This document shows, piece after piece, positions 3,277 through 60,773 of a stretch of DNA of 64,000 bases. Source of the stretch: Pseudomonadota bacterium (GTDB lineage Bacteria > Pseudomonadota > Gammaproteobacteria > Burkholderiales > Casimicrobiaceae); the NCBI GenBank assembly GCA_018241765.1, contig JAFEDD010000043.1:36667-100666 (forward strand), given 5' to 3'. The translations under genes were made by a program, and so were the position numbers. The notes beneath the pieces were generated by a model. The model was not told where the DNA came from, ran no database searches, and saw only the letters and a program-made list of their open reading frames with translations. Each line of letters starts with the position of its first letter. Position 1 is the first letter of the stretch.

Positions 3277-4299
3277 ATGAACAAGGAGAAACTGGCCGGT
3301 GCGATGGAGTTTCCGCCGGCAATCGAACAGCCGAACGTGTACCCGCTGTCGTGGCACCAGCACACGAAGAAGCTCGAAGACATCTGGGACGCTTCGCAGC
3401 GCGAGGTGTGGGACCCGAAGAAACTGCCTTGGGACACGTTCAACGTCGGCAAATACAGTTGGGAGCAGCGCGAGGCGATCGCGTATTGGTGGACGTTGCT
3501 TTCGGTGTTCGATGCGTCGGCGCCGCCCGTGTTCGCCGCCGCGATGATCAAGACCTACGAGGCGCACGAGGAAGACGCCGTGCGCCGCTGCTTCTTCAGC
3601 GTGACGCGCGACGAGCAGAACCACGAGCAGATGTGCGGGATGGCCATCACGAAGTTTCTCGAACATCCCGATCCCTTGACCTACACGCCGAAAACCGAAC
3701 TTGGCAAGCGGTTGCAGAAGAACGCGAAGTGGCTCTACTTCAACGGTGGGCGCTACTGGACCGGCTACAAGTCCGCGGTGCCGAAGTACAGCCTTGCCGT
3801 GCTGTTCAGCTCGTTCCTGATGGGCGAGATCGCGGCCGCGACGATCTTTCACCAGATGGCGGCCGGTTGCACCGAGCCGGTGTTCAAGGAGGCGTTCCGC
3901 AACATCGGCAAGGACGAAGGGCGGCACATGGGCATTTGCCTTGCGCTGATGGAGCGCGACTATCCGAAGCTCGACGTGTCCGACCGCGGCCTCATCACCA
4001 AGCAGATCCGCGCGGGCTATCTCTTTCTGTCTGCGGTGCTGTTCGAGCCGCCGATGGACTTCTGGGATCTGCCCTCCGATTTCATCGCCAACCAGCGCGA
4101 GGGCGAAGAGATCGCGCGCAAGGCCGGCTTTGCGATTCCGGGCTATGAGGCGAAGAAGAACAACTGGCGAGCGGCGATCCTGAACCTGAAGGGGGCGCTC
4201 GACAAGTACGGCATTCCGTTCCCCGCCATTCCCGAGGTGGACATCACCGGGCAGGAGATCACGGACATCGATATGGAAGACATCATTCCGGTGTTCTGA
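3277..4299 (+). CDS. Ferritin-like diiron oxygenase (predicted hydroxylase component)
   Basis: A 340-residue soluble helical protein with two carboxylate/His metal motifs: RDEQNHE (Glu113, His116) and MGE plus KDEGRHM (Glu184, Glu214, His217), with further acidic residues at 96-99. This is the ligand pattern of R2-like diiron proteins. The start is the ATG at 3277, with CAGGAG eight bases upstream. The next gene encodes a ferredoxin-type reductase, so the pair can supply electrons to a substrate-oxidising diiron site. The substrate is unknown. I do not see the radical-transfer features needed to call it ribonucleotide reductase, and no large subunit is nearby. A strong hairpin terminator follows the stop codon. 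Confidence 0.75.
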   Translation: MNKEKLAGAMEFPPAIEQPNVYPLSWHQHTKKLEDIWDASQREVWDPKKLPWDTFNVGKYSWEQREAIAYWWTLLSVFDASAPPVFAAAMIKTYEAHEEDAVRRCFFSVTRDEQNHEQMCGMAITKFLEHPDPLTYTPKTELGKRLQKNAKWLYFNGGRYWTGYKSAVPKYSLAVLFSSFLMGEIAAATIFHQMAAGCTEPVFKEAFRNIGKDEGRHMGICLALMERDYPKLDVSDRGLITKQIRAGYLFLSAVLFEPPMDFWDLPSDFIANQREGEEIARKAGFAIPGYEAKKNNWRAAILNLKGALDKYGIPFPAIPEVDITGQEITDIDMEDIIPVF

Positions 4300-4370: not shown

Positions 4371-5411
4371 ATGTCACATCAGATCAAGTTGTTTCCGTCC
4401 GGCCGTACCGTTGCCTGGCAGGAGGGCGACACGGCGCTCGAAGCGCTCGAGCGCGCCGGCTACGCGCTGCCCAACAACTGCCGTGCCGGGGCGTGCGGCG
4501 AGTGCAAGGTTCACGTTCGTTCGGGTGAGTTCGACCAGGGTTTCGTGCTCGACATGGCGCTGTCGCAAGATGAGCGCACGCAAGGCTTCGGCCTGATGTG
4601 CATGGCGAAACCGGTCTCCGAGGTGCTCGAGATCGAGTGGGGCACGGCGGATGCGAAACCGATCCTGTTTCCGCCTCGTGATTCGCAGTATGCGATTTTG
4701 GTCGACCGCATCGCGCGCACACCGCGCATCTCGGAATTCGTGCTGCGCCCGCTTGGCGAGCCGATGCGTTTCTGGCCCGGCCAATACGTGCAGTTGGGGG
4801 ATTCGACCCGGGGCATTCCGGTGCGTTCCTACTCGATTGCCAACGCGCCGCGTGCCGACGGTGAAATTCGCTTGCAGGTGACGCGCGTCGATGCCGGCTC
4901 GGCCGAGGCGGCCACCGCGGAGGGCCGCACCAGTCGCTGGCTGCACGATGAAGTGCAGCCGGGTGACACGCTGCGTTTTTCCGGCCCGCATGGCACGTTC
5001 ATCGGGGACCCTTCGGTCGACACGCCGGTGCTGTGTCTGGCCGCGGGCTCCGGGCTTGCGCCGATCCTGTCGCTCGCTGAGGCGGCGCTGCGGCGTGGCT
5101 TCAAGCAGCCGGTGACGTTGATGTTTTCGGCGCGTGACGCGAGCGAGCTCTACGACCGCGGTCTGATGCGCTATTGGGAGACGCGGTACCCGAACTTCCG
5201 CTATCTGCCGACGACGACGCGCTTGGCGTCGGCGGGCATCGCGCATGGCCGCATTCCGGCCATCCTCGGTGAGCACTTCCCCGATCTCTCCGGCTACAGC
5301 GTGTTCGTGGCCGGCACGCCTTCGTTCGTCGACGATTGCGTCGCGGCGGCTCGGGCGCTGGGTGCCACGGCGCCGCTCATCCACACCGAGGGATTCTTCG
5401 CGCAAGGCTGA
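4371..5411 (+). CDS. 2Fe-2S ferredoxin / FAD / NAD(P) reductase component
   Basis: A 346-residue electron-transfer protein with the BenC/MmoC order of domains. An N-terminal plant-type ferredoxin (CRAGACGEC at 37-45, fourth ligand Cys76) is followed by an FAD-binding barrel (RSYS at 151-154) and a NAD(P)-binding domain (LAAGSGLAPILSL, then VFVAGTPSFVDDC near the C-terminus). Such proteins carry electrons from NAD(P)H to a diiron or Rieske oxygenase. The diiron protein immediately upstream is the obvious partner. The gene lies behind a terminator and starts 12 bases after its T-tract. Confidence 0.88.
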   Translation: MSHQIKLFPSGRTVAWQEGDTALEALERAGYALPNNCRAGACGECKVHVRSGEFDQGFVLDMALSQDERTQGFGLMCMAKPVSEVLEIEWGTADAKPILFPPRDSQYAILVDRIARTPRISEFVLRPLGEPMRFWPGQYVQLGDSTRGIPVRSYSIANAPRADGEIRLQVTRVDAGSAEAATAEGRTSRWLHDEVQPGDTLRFSGPHGTFIGDPSVDTPVLCLAAGSGLAPILSLAEAALRRGFKQPVTLMFSARDASELYDRGLMRYWETRYPNFRYLPTTTRLASAGIAHGRIPAILGEHFPDLSGYSVFVAGTPSFVDDCVAAARALGATAPLIHTEGFFAQG

Positions 5412-5429
5412 TGGCGGCGCTGGCCGCGC

Positions 5430-6569
5430 TCAGGGCGTCGGCGGTTTCTTGCGTCGCAGGCCGAGGGCGGCGGGGTCGCCACCGGTGATGGCATCGAGGA
5501 AACGGGCGGCTTGCTTGTCGAGCACGTCGGCGGGCAGGCCGTCGCGGGTGAGCGCGGCGCGAATGGCGGTGGCCAGATCATCGCCGGCGCAGGCGCCGAA
5601 GCGAAAGCACGCCTCACGTGCCCACAGGCTCTCATGACCGCACCAGGCGCCGAGCTGGCACAGCGCGAGCTGCCACGCGAGCGGTGCCGTGACCTCGCCA
5701 AAGTAGCGCGCCTCGGCGACCGAGGGCGGGGCGGCGCCGATGGCGGCGTTGATGAGGGCGGGCTGCACGAGCTGGCCGAGCAGCGCGAGCGTCGTCGGGT
5801 CTTGTTCGGCCAGCGCGCGACGGATGGTTTCGAACTGCGCATCGGTCAGCGCCGAGAGGTTCAAGGTGCCGCCGATCAGGTTCATCAGCTCCGGCAATGC
5901 CGCGCCACGTTGCGCGAGCCGGGCGAGCGCGCTGTCGACATCGTCGCTGGCGCGCTTGGCGTCGAACTCGGCGCAGCCCGCGACGAGCGCGCGGTTGCTC
6001 TCCAGCATGCGGGTGCGCTCGGCCGGGCTCTTGAACAGATCGGGGGGGTCTTTCAGCGTGGGGGCTCGCATGCGACCCGGTGCGTAGCTCGAGTTGGATG
6101 CCTGTGCCTTCACCATGGGCGAGCCGTTGCGCAGGCAGTAGTCGAGCAGTTCGAGCGAGAAGGCGTTGATGGCGGCGTCGTCGGCGCCTGCGGCGTCGCG
6201 AATGGCGAGCGCGACCGACGGCTGCGCCTGCAAGGCGGCGAGCCGTTGGCGGCGCGTGGTGCGCGGGTCGGCGTTGCCGCGCGCGGCGTTGTCGGTGCGC
6301 TGCAATTGGCCGGGCACGGCCTCCGCCGTGGCGGGGTCGATGGCACGAATGGCGCTGACGGCACCACCACTTGCGGTCGATGGCGACGACGCGGCGGCTC
6401 CGGCGTTCGGCAGGGCGTTCGCCGCGGTGCCGCCCGCGCCGCCGTCAGCGTTGCCGAAACCGCCGTGCATCCAGCGCCAACCGAGCACGCCGAGAACGGC
6501 GAGTGCGAGCATGACGATCAACGGACGCAACGAGGCGCGCTCGCTGCGCGGGCCGGCATCGGGGCTCAT
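5430..6569 (-). CDS. Uncharacterised membrane-anchored protein
   Basis: I do not recognise this 379-residue protein. A short N-terminal tail is followed by one hydrophobic helix (LRPLIVMLALAVLGVLGW, about residues 15-32) and an Ala/Gly/Ser-rich linker. The remainder is a helical periplasmic domain with scattered Cys residues (LCQLGAWCGHESLWAREACF near the C-terminus), which could form disulfides. The positive-inside tail predicts an N-in, C-out anchor. The ATG at 6569 gives a short tail; an upstream ATG at 6611 is possible. It is convergent with the reductase gene, and a palindromic element (6630-6746) lies just upstream. Confidence 0.6.
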   Translation of the reverse strand: MSPDAGPRSERASLRPLIVMLALAVLGVLGWRWMHGGFGNADGGAGGTAANALPNAGAAASSPSTASGGAVSAIRAIDPATAEAVPGQLQRTDNAARGNADPRTTRRQRLAALQAQPSVALAIRDAAGADDAAINAFSLELLDYCLRNGSPMVKAQASNSSYAPGRMRAPTLKDPPDLFKSPAERTRMLESNRALVAGCAEFDAKRASDDVDSALARLAQRGAALPELMNLIGGTLNLSALTDAQFETIRRALAEQDPTTLALLGQLVQPALINAAIGAAPPSVAEARYFGEVTAPLAWQLALCQLGAWCGHESLWAREACFRFGACAGDDLATAIRAALTRDGLPADVLDKQAARFLDAITGGDPAALGLRRKKPPTP

Positions 6570-6629
6570 GAACGGGTCAGGCACGATGGGCGCACCGCAA
6601 CGCATCCGCAACCGACGACGGTTCGATAT

Positions 6630-6746
6630 GGCTTTTCAAAAAAATGGCGTCCATGACGGGCTTGGCGCCTGAAATCACCAAAACTCGACTTTGCCAGAAA
6701 TCGCGCTCCAAGCCCATTGTGAACGCCATTTGAACGAAAAGTTGTT
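6630..6746. repeat. Palindromic interspersed element, copy A (117 bp)
   Basis: Two imperfect inverted arms of about 36 bases (6630-6665 and 6708-6743) surround a 42-base centre. The arms share CTTTTC at the outer ends and GGGCTTGG at the inner ends. The same architecture occurs at 10939-11055, 39533-39650 and 60653-60773. The copy lies between the unknown protein gene and hemA. Confidence 0.75.
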
Positions 6747-6782: not shown

Positions 6783-8021
6783 TCAGGCGACGATGGCGGG
6801 CGCCGTGCGCATCAGTCCGAGCTCGCTCCACTCGGCATCGAGCGCGGCGACGAAGGCGTCGAGCATCGCCGCCGTGTGGCAAGGGCCGGGGGCGATGCGG
6901 ATGCGTTCGCTGCCGCGCGGCACGGTCGGGTAGTTGATCGGTTGCAGGTAGATGCCGTGGCGCTCCTGCAGTCGATCGGTGAGCGTCTTCACCTTGACCG
7001 GGTCGCCGACCAGCACCGGCACGATGTGCGACTGGCTGGGCATGACCGGCAGGCCGATGGCGGTGAGCCGGGACTTCATCGTCGCCACGCGCTCGCGCTG
7101 CAAACGCCGCTCTTCCGGCGATTGCATCAGGTGCGTGACGCTGGCGATGGCACCAGCGGCGAGCACCGGAGCGAGCGAGGTGGAGAAGATGAAGGAGGCG
7201 CCGAAGCTGCGAATGCAATCGACGACGGGGTCTTCGCCGGTGACGTATCCGCCCTGCATGCCAAAGGCTTTGCCGAGCGTGCCCTGAATGACGTCGATCT
7301 GGTCGGCCACGCCTCGCTCCTGCGCGACGCCACCACCACGTTCGCCGTACATGCCGACCGCGTGCACTTCGTCGAGGTAGGTCATGGCACCGTATTTGCG
7401 GGCGAGACGGGCGAATTCGCCGATCGGAGCGATGTTGCCGCTCATCGAATAGACGCTCTCGAACACGATCAGCTTCGGTCGACCGGGGTCGATCTCGGCG
7501 AGTTTCGCTTCAAGGGCGCGCGGGCTGTTGTGCTCGAAGATGATGCGCTCGCCCGTGGCGCGGCGAATGCCTTCGATCATCGAATTGTGGTTGTCGGCGT
7601 CGGAGAGGATGACGGTATCGGCCAGGAGCGAGCCGAGCACCGAGAGCGCGGCGAGGTTGGCGCTGTAGCCCGAGGTGAAGGTGAGCGCGGCGGCCTTGCC
7701 GTGCAGTTTGGCCAACAGCCGTTCGAGTTCGACGTGCAGCGCGTTGGTGCCACCGATGTTGCGGGTGCCGCCCGCGCCGGTGGCGCCTTCATCGATCGCC
7801 CGATGCATGGCGGCACGCACGAGCGGGTGGTGTCCCATGCCGAGGTAGTCGTTGGAGCACCACGTGATGACTTCGCGCACACCGCTCGGGCTCGCCCAGC
7901 GAACCCGCGGAAAGGCGCCAGCCGGTCGCGTGAGCTCTGCGAAAATGCGGTAGCGCCCCTCGCGCTTCAAGGCATCGAGCCGGGCGGCGAACAAGGCGGG
8001 GTATTCGGCAGAGCGGATCAA
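6783..8021 (-). CDS. hemA: 5-aminolevulinate synthase
   Basis: A 412-residue PLP enzyme of the alpha-oxoamine synthase family that joins glycine and succinyl-CoA to make 5-aminolevulinate, the first step of heme synthesis by the Shemin (C4) route. The ALAS-specific stretches are present: [42 protein letters not shown], the PLP lysine in GTLGKAFG (Lys251), and the C-terminal [17 protein letters not shown]. These separate it from BioF and Kbl. The start is a TTG at 8021, giving the family-typical EGRYR segment near residue 21; no better ATG exists. It is divergent from folP. Betaproteobacteria normally make ALA from glutamyl-tRNA, so this gene may be acquired. Confidence 0.93.
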
Positions 8022-10784: not shown

Positions 10785-10811
10785 CCTCGATTCCACTTCG
10801 TTGCATCGAGG
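10785..10811. repeat. Short hairpin repeat, copy 1
   Basis: A 27-base unit beginning CCTCGAT and ending ATCGAGG, a 7-bp stem around a 13-base loop. The following ~45 bases, including GTTCGCGTCGGCGCGAGC, recur after copy 3. Confidence 0.75.
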
Positions 10812-10881: not shown

Positions 10882-10908
10882 CCTCGATTCCACTTCGTTG
10901 CATCGAGG
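10882..10908. repeat. Short hairpin repeat, copy 2
   Basis: Identical to copy 1 over all 27 bases; the starts of the two copies are 97 bases apart. Confidence 0.75.
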
Positions 10909-10938
10909 CTACGTGCTACGAGGCATTTTTGTGTGGTA

Positions 10939-11055
10939 CAGCTTGATCTTGGAAGGCGCATCCAAAGCAGGCTTGCGGTACGAAATGCGGCCAAAGTCGA
11001 CTTGAAAAACTGGAGAAATGCGACGCAACGCGATTAGGGAAAATTTGTGTTTGTT
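10939..11055. repeat. Palindromic interspersed element, copy D (degenerate, 117 bp)
   Basis: The left arm (CAGCTTGATCTTGGAAGG, then GCATCCAAAGCAGGCTTGCG) aligns with the arms of the copies at 39533 and 60653 with scattered mismatches. The centre carries AAAGTCGACTT as in the 60653 copy, and the right end AGGGAAAATTTGTGTTTG is a decayed form of GAGCGAAAAGTTGTT. Its 117-base span equals copy A, which supports the match. Confidence 0.55.
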
Positions 11056-11223
11056 AATCAATGGGTTGGATGAGTTACGCATCGAGCTTCGAGCAAGCCT
11101 GCGACGTGCCGATGGCGTCGGGACGTGAAAGTTGCCCTGCAAGCTGCGCCAATCAAGGAAACTCCCTGTTCAAACGCGGTCAGCACGAGCTCCGGACGGA
11201 TGGCGGGGGTGGTGCGCGCTTGC

Positions 11224-11250
11224 CCTCGATTCCACTGCGTTGCATCGAGG
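11224..11250. repeat. Short hairpin repeat, copy 3
   Basis: Same 27-base unit as copies 1 and 2 with one change in the loop (ACTGCG for ACTTCG). It is followed by the same GCGTTCGCGTCGGCGCGAGC context as copy 1. Confidence 0.72.
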
Positions 11251-16318: not shown

Positions 16319-18543
16319 GGTGTGCTCGCGTGCGTTGCATTTGCGTCGGTGTCGATGGCCTGAACGCGCACCTGGAGCGGCCACAGAACCGGGTCGAGGC
16401 GCATTGCGAGCACCAGTCGCGCGCGGGCGCCACTGGAATTGAGCTGCCGCAGCATCGACTCGCCGAGCGCGGCATGCGCGACGCCGAGTTGAGGATGCCA
16501 TGTGGCGAGGCCACTGGCCGCGTCCGCGTAGTGCGAGCTCCCCGTGGCCCGCATGCCCAGCCGTGCGATGTAGGCCTCGCCCACGGGATTGTCGAGCGCG
16601 ATGCCGGTGCGATCGAGCGCGAGTTGAGCCGCAGTGACGTCATCGCGCAACAGGTGAAGTTCGACGATGTCGCGCGCAAGTTCCGCGACGTGCGGCGACG
16701 CGTCGAGCGTGGCCAGCGCGGCGTCGATGTCGCCGGACAAGGCGTGCGCGAGCGCAACGGCGCGGGCATTGCCGAGACCGGCCGACGCAAGCGGCGCGAG
16801 TTCGATGACACGGTTGTGTTCTCCGCGACGATGTGCCAGTTCCAGCAGCGCATCGGCCTCCCCGGAGCCGAGCGGTGTTCCTTCGCGCATCGCAGCGCCG
16901 GCGGCATCGGCCGCGCCCAGGTCGTCTTGCGCGAGGGCCACGCGAAGGCGTGCGAGCGCCGTGCGTCGTGCGGCGGGTGCCATGCGCTCCATTTGCGTCA
17001 GCGCGGTCTGTGCGGCACCGATATGGCCCGCTTCGAGGTTGTGCCGCACGCGCTCGCCATGCCCATCGAGCAGCGCAAGCGCGTCGGGCGAGAGGTCGGC
17101 TTCGGAGCGCTGTGGCGTCACGGGTACGGTGTCTTCGCTGCGCGCGGCGACCTCACGCAGACGCGGCAGCATCGCGAGCAGCAGGGTCGCGAGTGCCGGA
17201 AGCAACAATCCGATCGGGGCGCCCGTGGCATCCGGCAATCGCGACAGGCGGGGCATCGCAAGCACGCAGATCGCCGCGCTCGCGGCCCACGCCGTCGCCG
17301 CAGCGGCAGCGCCAGCCCAGCGCGGGGTCGTGGCCGGTGCCGGCCACAGTCGATGCAGTCCGAGCAAGCCGAGTGCCAGCGCAGGGAGTCCGGCGGCGCG
17401 CTGCACGATGGCGAGCAACGGTTGTGTGGGGTCGCGCAACGGCGCCACCGGGACCGGAGCGGGAAGTATTTGTTGCGCCGCTGCGGCGACGGCGAAGGCG
17501 GGCGCCAACGCCAGCAAACCCGCTGCGGTCGTCACCCGGCGCGGCAACCAGGGTGCGGCGAGCAGGATCATCAGCGGCACCGATGCGATCGCCGCCACCA
17601 ACGGTGCAAGCCAGACCGCGACGCAAGCGAAGAGCGCAACCCCACCCAAGGTCGCGGCACTCACCACCAGCGTGTGCTGTCGGCTCTGCGCCCACCACGG
17701 CCCACCGGCCAAGAGCAGCGCCAACGCGGCAGCGCTCGCACCGAGCAGTGCCGGAGTGAAGCCCGGCCACAATCGTGCGGCGACGGTGGTGGCGGCGAGC
17801 AATATCGCCAGCAGTCCCGCCAGCGCGGTCAGCGCGGATGCGCGCTGCGCGGGTTGGCGCCGCTCCATGAAGGCAACGAGAGCCATCGCGAACACGCTGA
17901 CGAACGTGAGCCATAACGGGAGGGCAAGCACGCGCACCGCCGCCCCCTGCGTGACGGCAAGATCGCGCGCGTCACCGAACCAGGTGGCGCGCAGCAAACG
18001 CAGCGCTCCGAGCGGGGTTGCGTGGACGAGTTCGACGCTCGAAATCCCAAGCACGCCACCCTCGCTGATCGACCCGGCGCGCCTGCCTTCGCTCGCCAGA
18101 GCCATTTGCAGAACGCTCCCTCGCCAACGGGCGTGCCCGACCAGCGGCACGAGTACCGTACGCGGCGCGCTGCCACGTTCGATGAACACCGAGGCACTCG
18201 CCGTACGACGGCTGTCTTCGCCCGTGCGCCACCCCAGTGCGAGTTGTTGCGCGCCGTCGCCTTCGGTGACATTGAGAACCAGCGCCAGTACGTCGGTGGC
18301 CGGAACGGTCGCGCTTCTGTGCTGCGCGATGGCAGGTCCGGTCGACGCGTCGAAGCGAAGGAAATCGGCGGAAGTCGACTTGACACGCTCGACGTTGGCA
18401 ACCGGTTGTAGATCGAGGCGATCGGGGGCGGCGCCGACGCCCCATGCGCCGAGCAGCGTCACTTGCAGCAGCAAGGCAGTCGCCGTGGCGACCAACAGGG
18501 CGAGCGACGCTCGGAGCAGCGCGCGCGGCGACAGGGCCGGCAT
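16315..18543 (-). CDS. Unknown polytopic membrane protein with C-terminal helical repeats
   Basis: I do not recognise this 742-residue protein. A first membrane helix (about 10-32) is followed by a beta-rich, probably periplasmic region of some 170 residues, then roughly eight Ala/Leu-rich membrane segments (about 205-470) and a cytoplasmic C-terminal domain of about 260 residues. That last domain is made of paired Ala-rich helices resembling tetratricopeptide repeats, for example HIGAAQTALTQMERMAPAAR. The architecture recalls envelope polysaccharide or cell-surface assembly proteins, but no catalytic motif is visible. The ATG at 18543 has GGAGA upstream; a TTG one codon earlier is possible. 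Its stop overlaps the MFS start. Confidence 0.6.
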   Translation of the reverse strand: MPALSPRALLRASLALLVATATALLLQVTLLGAWGVGAAPDRLDLQPVANVERVKSTSADFLRFDASTGPAIAQHRSATVPATDVLALVLNVTEGDGAQQLALGWRTGEDSRRTASASVFIERGSAPRTVLVPLVGHARWRGSVLQMALASEGRRAGSISEGGVLGISSVELVHATPLGALRLLRATWFGDARDLAVTQGAAVRVLALPLWLTFVSVFAMALVAFMERRQPAQRASALTALAGLLAILLAATTVAARLWPGFTPALLGASAAALALLLAGGPWWAQSRQHTLVVSAATLGGVALFACVAVWLAPLVAAIASVPLMILLAAPWLPRRVTTAAGLLALAPAFAVAAAAQQILPAPVPVAPLRDPTQPLLAIVQRAAGLPALALGLLGLHRLWPAPATTPRWAGAAAAATAWAASAAICVLAMPRLSRLPDATGAPIGLLLPALATLLLAMLPRLREVAARSEDTVPVTPQRSEADLSPDALALLDGHGERVRHNLEAGHIGAAQTALTQMERMAPAARRTALARLRVALAQDDLGAADAAGAAMREGTPLGSGEADALLELAHRRGEHNRVIELAPLASAGLGNARAVALAHALSGDIDAALATLDASPHVAELARDIVELHLLRDDVTAAQLALDRTGIALDNPVGEAYIARLGMRATGSSHYADAASGLATWHPQLGVAHAALGESMLRQLNSSGARARLVLAMRLDPVLWPLQVRVQAIDTDANATHASTP

Positions 18544-39532: not shown

Positions 39533-39650
39533 CAACTTTTCGCGCTAACCCGCATCCATAACGGGCTTGCGGCGAAAAATCACGTTATGTCGATAATCGA
39601 CAAAATCGAGCTGTGAGCCCGTTATGGATGCGGCTTCAACGAAAAAGCTG
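39533..39650. repeat. Palindromic interspersed element, copy B (118 bp)
   Basis: The inverted arms contain a perfect 18-base match, CCGCATCCATAACGGGCT on the left (from 39550) and its complement on the right (39617-39634). Outer ends are CAACTTTTCG and CGAAAAAGCTG. The centre (CGATAATCGACAAAATCG) is itself partly palindromic. The gap from 39651 to the IS remnant holds nothing else I recognise. Confidence 0.8.
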
Positions 39651-60652: not shown

Positions 60653-60773
60653 AACAACTTTTCTCGCAAAGCCGCATCCATGACGGGCTTGCGGCGATAT
60701 TTCCGTTGAAGTCGACTTTCTACATTTTACTTCTGGAAGCCCGTTATGAACGTCATTTGAGCGAAAAGTTGTT
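60653..60773. repeat. Palindromic interspersed element, copy C (121 bp)
   Basis: This copy shows the outer ends best: AACAACTTTTCTCGC on the left and GCGAAAAGTTGTTTG on the right are nearly exact inverted complements. Inner arms carry CCATGACGGGCTTGCGG and AAGCCCGTTATGAACG. The centre has AAGTCGACTTT. It sits 64 bases after livF; nothing else is seen between 60589 and 60901. Confidence 0.82.

Follow-up and report, generated by a model that had tools for sequence, protein, structure and literature searches.

Intergenic dyads of 116–118 bp with species-specific arms in a genus of the Casimicrobiaceae: candidate sites for a putative chromosome-organising protein

Described intergenic palindromes and the dyads of the window

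Short intergenic palindromes of bacteria are usually classed as mobile DNA. ERIC elements are palindromic, and matS and parS are dispersed dyads of ~13–16 bp that are kept by a trans-acting protein. The dyads described here differ from matS and parS in being ~117 bp long, in their near-strict length and in having arms that are specific to the species.

In the available sections of PMC2759123 and PMC2229807, ERIC elements and intergenic repeat units are small, mobile and MITE-like, ~100–130 bp long, multi-copy and intergenic. Our dyads share this size range, multiplicity and intergenic position, but differ from ERIC as described there in having a near-exact length, random spacers, species-wide arm types and no copied pairs that we could find. 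REPINs, as presented in the accessible part of PMC3116915, are inverted doublets of fixed spacing, intergenic and present in hundreds per genome, with the spacer conserved in length and not in sequence, and in all of this they resemble the dyads. Unlike REPINs, the dyads carry no GTAG tag, do not flank the RAYT genes examined and show no compensatory changes, and GTAG-tagged repeats exist apart from the dyads in the same genomes. A further comparison is with DNA gyrase, for which the accessible part of PMC6379681 gives an Escherichia coli motif that is symmetric, 130 bp long and flanked by a GC content oscillating at 10.75 bp. The gyrase sites Mu SGS and BIME-2 of that source are, like the dyads, symmetric over ~130 bp with phased GC, and BIME-2 is also intergenic; unlike these two, the dyads have specific conserved words, a shorter period and a weak profile match to the Mu site. 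No description of the dyad family was found among the open full-text papers searched, including the accessible parts of PMC12393610 and PMC12324340.

The window is the whole 64,000-nt stretch analysed here (contig JAFEDD010000043.1). An initial annotation had described four copies of one palindromic family in it. Three of them stand, at 6629–6744, 39533–39650 and 60655–60771, whereas the interval 10939–11055 reached only 16.5 bits (E=0.32) with the covariance model R1, and its left half alone matches. The features are as follows, with window scores from cmsearch with R1, filters off:

60655..60771, minus strand: dyad copy 4, 117 nt, A half on the right and B half on the left (114.5 bits with R1, whose training set contains this copy; ends from alignment A2)
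60655..60662, plus strand: left outer box of copy 4, CAACTTTT (from the sequence; conserved in A2)
60668..60691, plus strand: left arm of copy 4, B type, AAAGCCGCATCCATGACGGGCTTG (from the sequence; B half consensus)
60708..60719, no strand: central dyad of copy 4, GAAGTCGACTTT (half-site junction at 60713/60714)
60736..60758, minus strand: right arm of copy 4, A type, GAAGCCCGTTATGAACGTCATTT (from the sequence; A half consensus)
60764..60771, minus strand: right outer box of copy 4, AAAAGTTG (from the sequence)
6629..6744, no strand: dyad copy 1, 116 nt, AA (R1 96.4 bits on one strand and 95.7 on the other)
39533..39650, no strand: dyad copy 3, 118 nt, BB (R1 93.5 bits on one strand and 88 on the other)
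10937..11151, plus strand: member of a second family, not a dyad, with one B half-site at 10939–10997 (E=7.1e-28, 73%; half-site PWM match; alignment)
L091:14408–14640, and L099 near 3850–4085 and 4595–4832: other places of the second family

All three dyads lie between genes, as the initial annotation had it, by the calls of a simple purpose-made gene caller; copy 1 is 38 bp from the stop of a gene called at 6783–8021 on the minus strand. The inner arms reported there, ACGGGCTTG/CAAGCCCGT, are as described, whereas the outer ends had been placed a few bases off, the boxes being CARCTTTT/AAAAGYTG. With copy 3 as a BLAST query against its own genome, 53 matches came from the best 40 of 188 candidates, the best other place having E=9.2e-21; together with at least 114 places found by covariance model (below), this excludes chance similarity among the window dyads.

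Members of the second family are ~215–230 bp long and combine one B half-site with conserved TTAATCAATG and ACGTGAAAGTTGCCCTGCAAGC segments. Besides the query, 20 matches of 215–234 bp at 69–77% identity, including the one in the window, were found in the own genome among the best 40 of 228 candidates. The half-site at 10939–10997 scores 26.6 with the PWM, whereas B halves have a median of 73.6. The two L099 elements are adjoined by a 77-aa fragment (L099:3479–3712) that resembles the start of the neighbouring GTPase-like gene (5001–6098; YchF-like by eye), as if the start of the gene had been duplicated.

Architecture, number and range

Twenty-nine copies from the own genome (G000) were aligned in 118 nearly gap-free columns (A2, from which L020 was left out as its extracted row was incomplete). 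The consensus has terminal inverted repeats, namely the outer boxes CARCTTTT and AAAAGYTG with about two further A/T-rich bases beyond them, a GGGCTT arm on each side, the centre AAAGTCGACTTT with a nearly invariant TCGA, and spacers without consensus. Arms are of two types, A (AAATGACGTCCATAACGGGCTTG) and B (AAAGCCGCATCCATAACGGGCTTG), the latter one base longer, so that half-sites of 58 nt (A) and 59 nt (B) yield dyads of 116 (AA), 117 (AB) or 118 (BB) nt. This length rule fits 55 of 57 own copies (seven AA of 116, 36 AB of 117 and 12 BB of 118), and the two exceptions are AB copies that deviate by one base. The constant length of ~117–121 bp claimed at the outset is thus near-constant at 116–118 bp. 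In the related genome G005 the rule is weaker, with 27 of 39 copies fitting and 12 not under approximate typing; all 15 copies fetched from G015 measure 116 nt, and 27 of the 28 fetched from G013 measure 118 nt.

The A/T content is helically phased. Positions 12 and 13 from the centre (counted from 0) are A or T in 114/114 own and 78/78 G005 half-sites, and A/T peaks follow at ~10 bp from the centre outward. The best period was 9.75–10 bp in six of seven species and 7.75 bp in G012, and block permutation gave p values of 0.0003–0.013 in all seven. Such phasing recalls DNA wrapped around a protein.

In the own genome (3.24 Mb in 76 contigs), R1 gave at least 150 matches at no fewer than 114 distinct places, each match spanning the full model at 116–118 nt. 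In a 389 kb sample consisting of contig C22 and the window, which was not picked for dyads, scores were bimodal: 20 places had 67–122 bits (four of them among the 29 copies behind R1), and the next had 25 bits and below. Extrapolated, this corresponds to ~167 (~170) copies genome-wide. By the orientation of neighbouring genes, the 57 own copies divide into 15 convergent, 14 divergent, 24 tandem, one with a neighbour missing and three within ORF calls, and the 39 G005 copies into nine convergent, six divergent and 24 tandem. Several copies overlap the predicted end of a gene as called by the same simple tool. The ORFs that span three own copies (L095, L101, L025) are taken as doubtful calls because they matched no Pfam family.

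With the multi-species model R2 (E<=1e-4), under the stricter filters that apply to searches of more than 40 genomes, 14 of the genus's 17 genomes were positive, against 0/47 genomes from six other genera of the same family. Ten of the 17 had 55–57 of 57 scored matches (both strands counted); few were found in G009 (13), G011 (8), G014 (3) and G007 (3), and none in G002, G010 and G016. The multi-species alignment A3 left out L073 of G014, a different repeat of 70 nt, and L082. Plain BLAST over 40 genomes (own and relatives) had returned, among the relatives, a single match of 34–36 nt each in G012 and G015; covariance models thus recovered the family in relatives where BLAST had missed it. The expected further copies in the genome and its relatives were therefore found, which bears out the view of the dyads as an intergenic palindromic family that has many members and varies little in length. 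A search of plasmids and phages with a 121-bp copy gave no match, nor did one of viral contigs with a single degenerate 20-base arm pattern. On the single-contig chromosome of G005, neither regular spacing nor an origin or terminus bias was found (Rayleigh p 0.51) for 46 positions, namely the best-scoring places listed and an approximate tldD site, not the full set of copies.

Copying, pairing and orthologous loci

The initial annotation had suggested a mobilised MITE or REP/BIME-type unit or, alternatively, a structured RNA. Its check for target-site duplications gave none for k=2–12 at 56 own and 39 G005 copies, the nearest to an excess being k=2 in G005 (10 observed vs 6.2 expected). Among 208 copies from seven species (57, 46, 28, 42, 10, 15 and 10 per species), no pair had a spacer identity beyond the range of 40 column shuffles, although the best identity equalled the top of that range in G000, G013 and G001; the best whole-element identity between two copies of one species was 0.83. 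The 389 kb sample holds few decayed copies and only four lone half-sites, all belonging to the ~215–230 bp family; apart from these four, it showed nothing with the same ends that might be an autonomous element. With no target duplications, no recently copied pair, positions shared across species (below) and eight examined RAYT genes that have repeats of their own, the mobilised unit in that form was not upheld.

Arm-arm complementarity in the own genome was 28.4 of 46 positions within an element and 29.5 between different elements (z -2.8), a value lower than expected because A-B pairs are favoured, and in G005 it was 23.6 vs 23.2 (z 0.8). Covariation of the arms, another check proposed, was thus absent from both genomes, and no consistent pairing partners were found within half-sites. 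At gathering score, Rfam found only a tRNA in the window and no family at the dyads. Arm changes show no relation to pairing, one of the outcomes that the initial annotation had itself named as refuting, and a structured RNA was not supported. Because there is no pairing covariation between or within arms, the palindrome would arise from each half following one consensus, as expected of a protein-bound dyad.

The dyads are partially retained at orthologous loci. Of the 39 G005 copies, five have the same genes on both sides as one of the 57 own copies (for one of the five, a second-neighbour gene was used on one side). In the 389 kb sample, under strict synteny, a dyad is present at three of four junctions whose two immediate neighbours flank a dyad in another species (4/5 pairs); against a background of 20 elements per 315 genes, three of four gives p ~0.001 by our own arithmetic. 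With one gene between allowed, the figures are 4/8 pairs and 3/7 junctions. Of the 16 genomes that have grpE, 10 carry a dyad upstream of it, and for alaS the figure is 7 of 16, counts that are not an unbiased sample, as both genes were chosen because G005 already shared them. The grpE dyads end 18–22 nt before a conserved CTTGAAA segment in 10/10 (GTTGAAA in G001). For tldD, a neighbour in the window, a dyad is directly upstream in G000, G005 and G013, of 14 upstream sequences examined, and more than 1 kb upstream in G012 and G015. By eye, diverged copies at one or more of grpE, alaS and tldD are suggested in G007, G010 and G011.

At these loci the sequence between the conserved parts has largely been replaced. 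Spacer identity in 19 orthologous pairs is close to that of random pairs (0.39 vs 0.36), as is that of most flanks, and intergenic flanks are mostly saturated at these species distances. Whole-element identity exceeded that of 95% of random cross-species pairs in 6/19 orthologous pairs, and 2/19 fell in the lowest 3%. Hypermutation of dyads relative to flanks had been suspected where alignments stop at the element, and was dropped, as most of the flanking sequence is saturated as well. Many loci seem unshared even between close species: leaving out alaS and grpE, G005 and G012 (46 and 42 copies) share two pairs by flanking genes and at most five by flanking DNA, whereas full sharing of ~170 sites would give ~11 by our own arithmetic, so that sites appear to be gained and lost.

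Arm types and competing explanations

At shared loci, the arms carry the arm-type group of their own species. We compared 22 orthologous elements at grpE, alaS and tldD, minus three (G006, G004, G014) lacking a species matrix and keeping the tldD rows of G012 and G015, where the element is more than 1 kb upstream. The arm-type group was assigned correctly in 19/19 and the own species in 14/19, with all five misses within the same group. G005 and G012 have GGGCT arms, whereas those of G013 and G008 are interchangeable and palindromic in themselves (CGACC-N7-GGTCG). In a three-gene tree of 17 genomes, in which some nodes near G013 are poorly supported, G013 stands beside G005 and G012, and G008 falls in another subclade; the GGTCG type also occurs in G003 (two copies, read by eye). 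As a single arm type is thus found in species that are not a clade, the arm type seems to have switched in entire site populations. A switch of at least 74 sites to one new arm sequence on the short G013 branch is demanding for site-by-site selection.

From these patterns we consider it slightly more probable than not that the dyads are ancient double-stranded DNA sites, bound by a putative protein for which outer boxes, arms and centre, set at fixed distances, would be the recognised features, and which would probably bend or wrap ~120 bp symmetrically around the central TCGA. Purifying selection would then act on the boxes, helical phase and length, while the trans-acting protein would hold each species to a single type of arm sequence; where its specificity switched, the sites would have followed. 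Because sites occur between genes of every relative orientation (convergent, divergent or tandem), we infer a role in the organisation of the chromosome or its topology, and not in the control of particular genes. More tentatively, and below an even chance in our view, the dyads may form a genus-wide chromosome code, in which dozens to ~170 docking sites per genome (116–118 bp) have a shared centre and end boxes and arms of at least two alternative specificities, and in which whole site populations, orthologous ones included, switched more than once (GGTCG in G013, G008 and G003, which form no clade), perhaps after exchange of the putative cognate protein. A single locus can be traced through up to 10 species with its interior rewritten to the species type at nearly constant length, which would make the family a rare natural record of joint change in a putative DNA-binding protein and more than 100 of its sites. 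Finding the bound protein would add a chromosome-organising system to what is known of this genus, most of which comes from metagenomes, and would allow tests of how the specificity of global regulators changes.

The inverted ends, the intergenic spread and the many loci apparently unshared between close species would also be expected of a very old MITE-like family, dispersed long ago by a putative recombinase and perhaps replaced in place by cassette exchange at identical ends, with slow gain and loss. Arm replacement across a whole population at fixed loci would fit this reading, and so would the presence in the own genome of the related ~215–230 bp element and its one half-site. Genes with a Y1 domain (PF01797) occur in 15 of the 17 genomes, and the two without them, G009 and G016, have few dyads and none, respectively, which would fit a link to a transposase. 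Against this, Y1 genes are also present in G002 and G010, where no dyads were detected, and in G007, G011 and G014, where dyads are few; the missing target-site duplications in either species, the lack of a recently copied pair among the 208 copies and, in the 389 kb sample, the scarcity of decayed copies and the restriction of lone half-sites to the four second-family ones argue in the same direction, and we regard a MITE-like origin as doubtful. Association with a RAYT gene having the same ends, as initially proposed, was not observed: eight of 30 Y1 loci were examined by eye, and all were flanked by their own GTAG-tagged palindromes and not by dyads. R2 matches occur in nine of the 30 loci, in eight of them at a distance from the Y1 match that exceeds 1 kb; neither of the two Y1 matches in the own genome falls in the YRR clade, and no GTAG or CGTC tag was seen at dyad ends by inspection of copies. 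We do not class the dyads as REPINs, given the other GTAG repeats of the RAYT genes examined and the distance of most R2 matches from Y1. A hairpin of DNA or a structured RNA, with a new REPIN class among the options, would account for the long fold-back potential of the three window dyads and for the self-palindromic arms of G013 and G008; since the arms of one element match no better than those of different elements, with no consistent partners within halves, no Rfam family, no GTAG tag and other repeats at the RAYT genes, we consider it very improbable.

The conserved features could also be read in terms of a known enzyme or of recombination. Gyrase is a possible bound factor: the dyads would then be strong gyrase sites, in which the C-terminal domains of GyrA would wrap the ~120 bp about a staggered cut of four bases in the middle, at TCGA. 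The E. coli motif in the accessible part of PMC6379681 is symmetric, 130 bp long and phased at 10.75 bp; the dyads are symmetric, ~120 bp long and phased. When phage Mu was scanned with the dyad A/T profile, a local maximum (z 1.7) centred on 17882 adjoined the gyrase cut annotated at 17879–17880, but with the mean profile this cut, the single known site tried, ranks just 1818 of 36601. The dyad period (9.75–10 bp; 7.75 bp in G012) is also shorter than 10.75 bp, species-specific arm words such as GGGCT and GGTCG would be needless, and the sites are spread uniformly on the single-contig chromosome of G005 (46 positions), so dyads that are simply strong gyrase sites appear unlikely. Short-tract ectopic gene conversion, without a protein, might have homogenised the arms, which are the longest shared segment and homogeneous within species, unlike the spacers. 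The A/T-only positions, the centre and the length are equally kept though they lie outside the arms, and an identity of ~20 bp is short for homologous recombination; this is the explanation to which we give least credence. Two other candidates were rejected: a transcription terminator, because divergent, convergent and tandem contexts are all seen and the sides on which the T and A tracts lie do not suit one, and an attC-like integron site, because the copies are dispersed and the core-site motif also speaks against it.

Several other repeats and gene positions were noted. Three copies of a GTAG-tagged REP-like palindrome, CCTCGATTCCACTTCGTTGCATCGAGGCTAC, lie around the second-family element of the window (10785–10811, 10882–10908 and 11224–11250); its core pattern has nine occurrences in the 389 kb sample, a number open to double counting as the pieces overlap, and a similar palindrome flanks a RAYT gene beside alaS in G005. 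Around the own Y1 genes L338 (C6) and L339 (C24), repeats of two further GTAG families, GTAGGAGCGGCTTCAGCCGCGA and GTAGGCGCGGGCTTGACCGCGC, are densely arrayed. In G001, a weak R2 match of 103 nt (L320, 1265–1367; 27.8 bits) lies 134 bp from a TnpA-type gene (131 bits) and is possibly an IS200/IS605 end that resembles a dyad. Y1/RAYT genes recur near alaS, and a few kb from grpE, in several species (L331 in G005, L336 in G010 and L337 in G013; L330 in G005, L334 in G002 and L335 in G008), and these repeated positions suggest long vertical inheritance of the RAYT genes.
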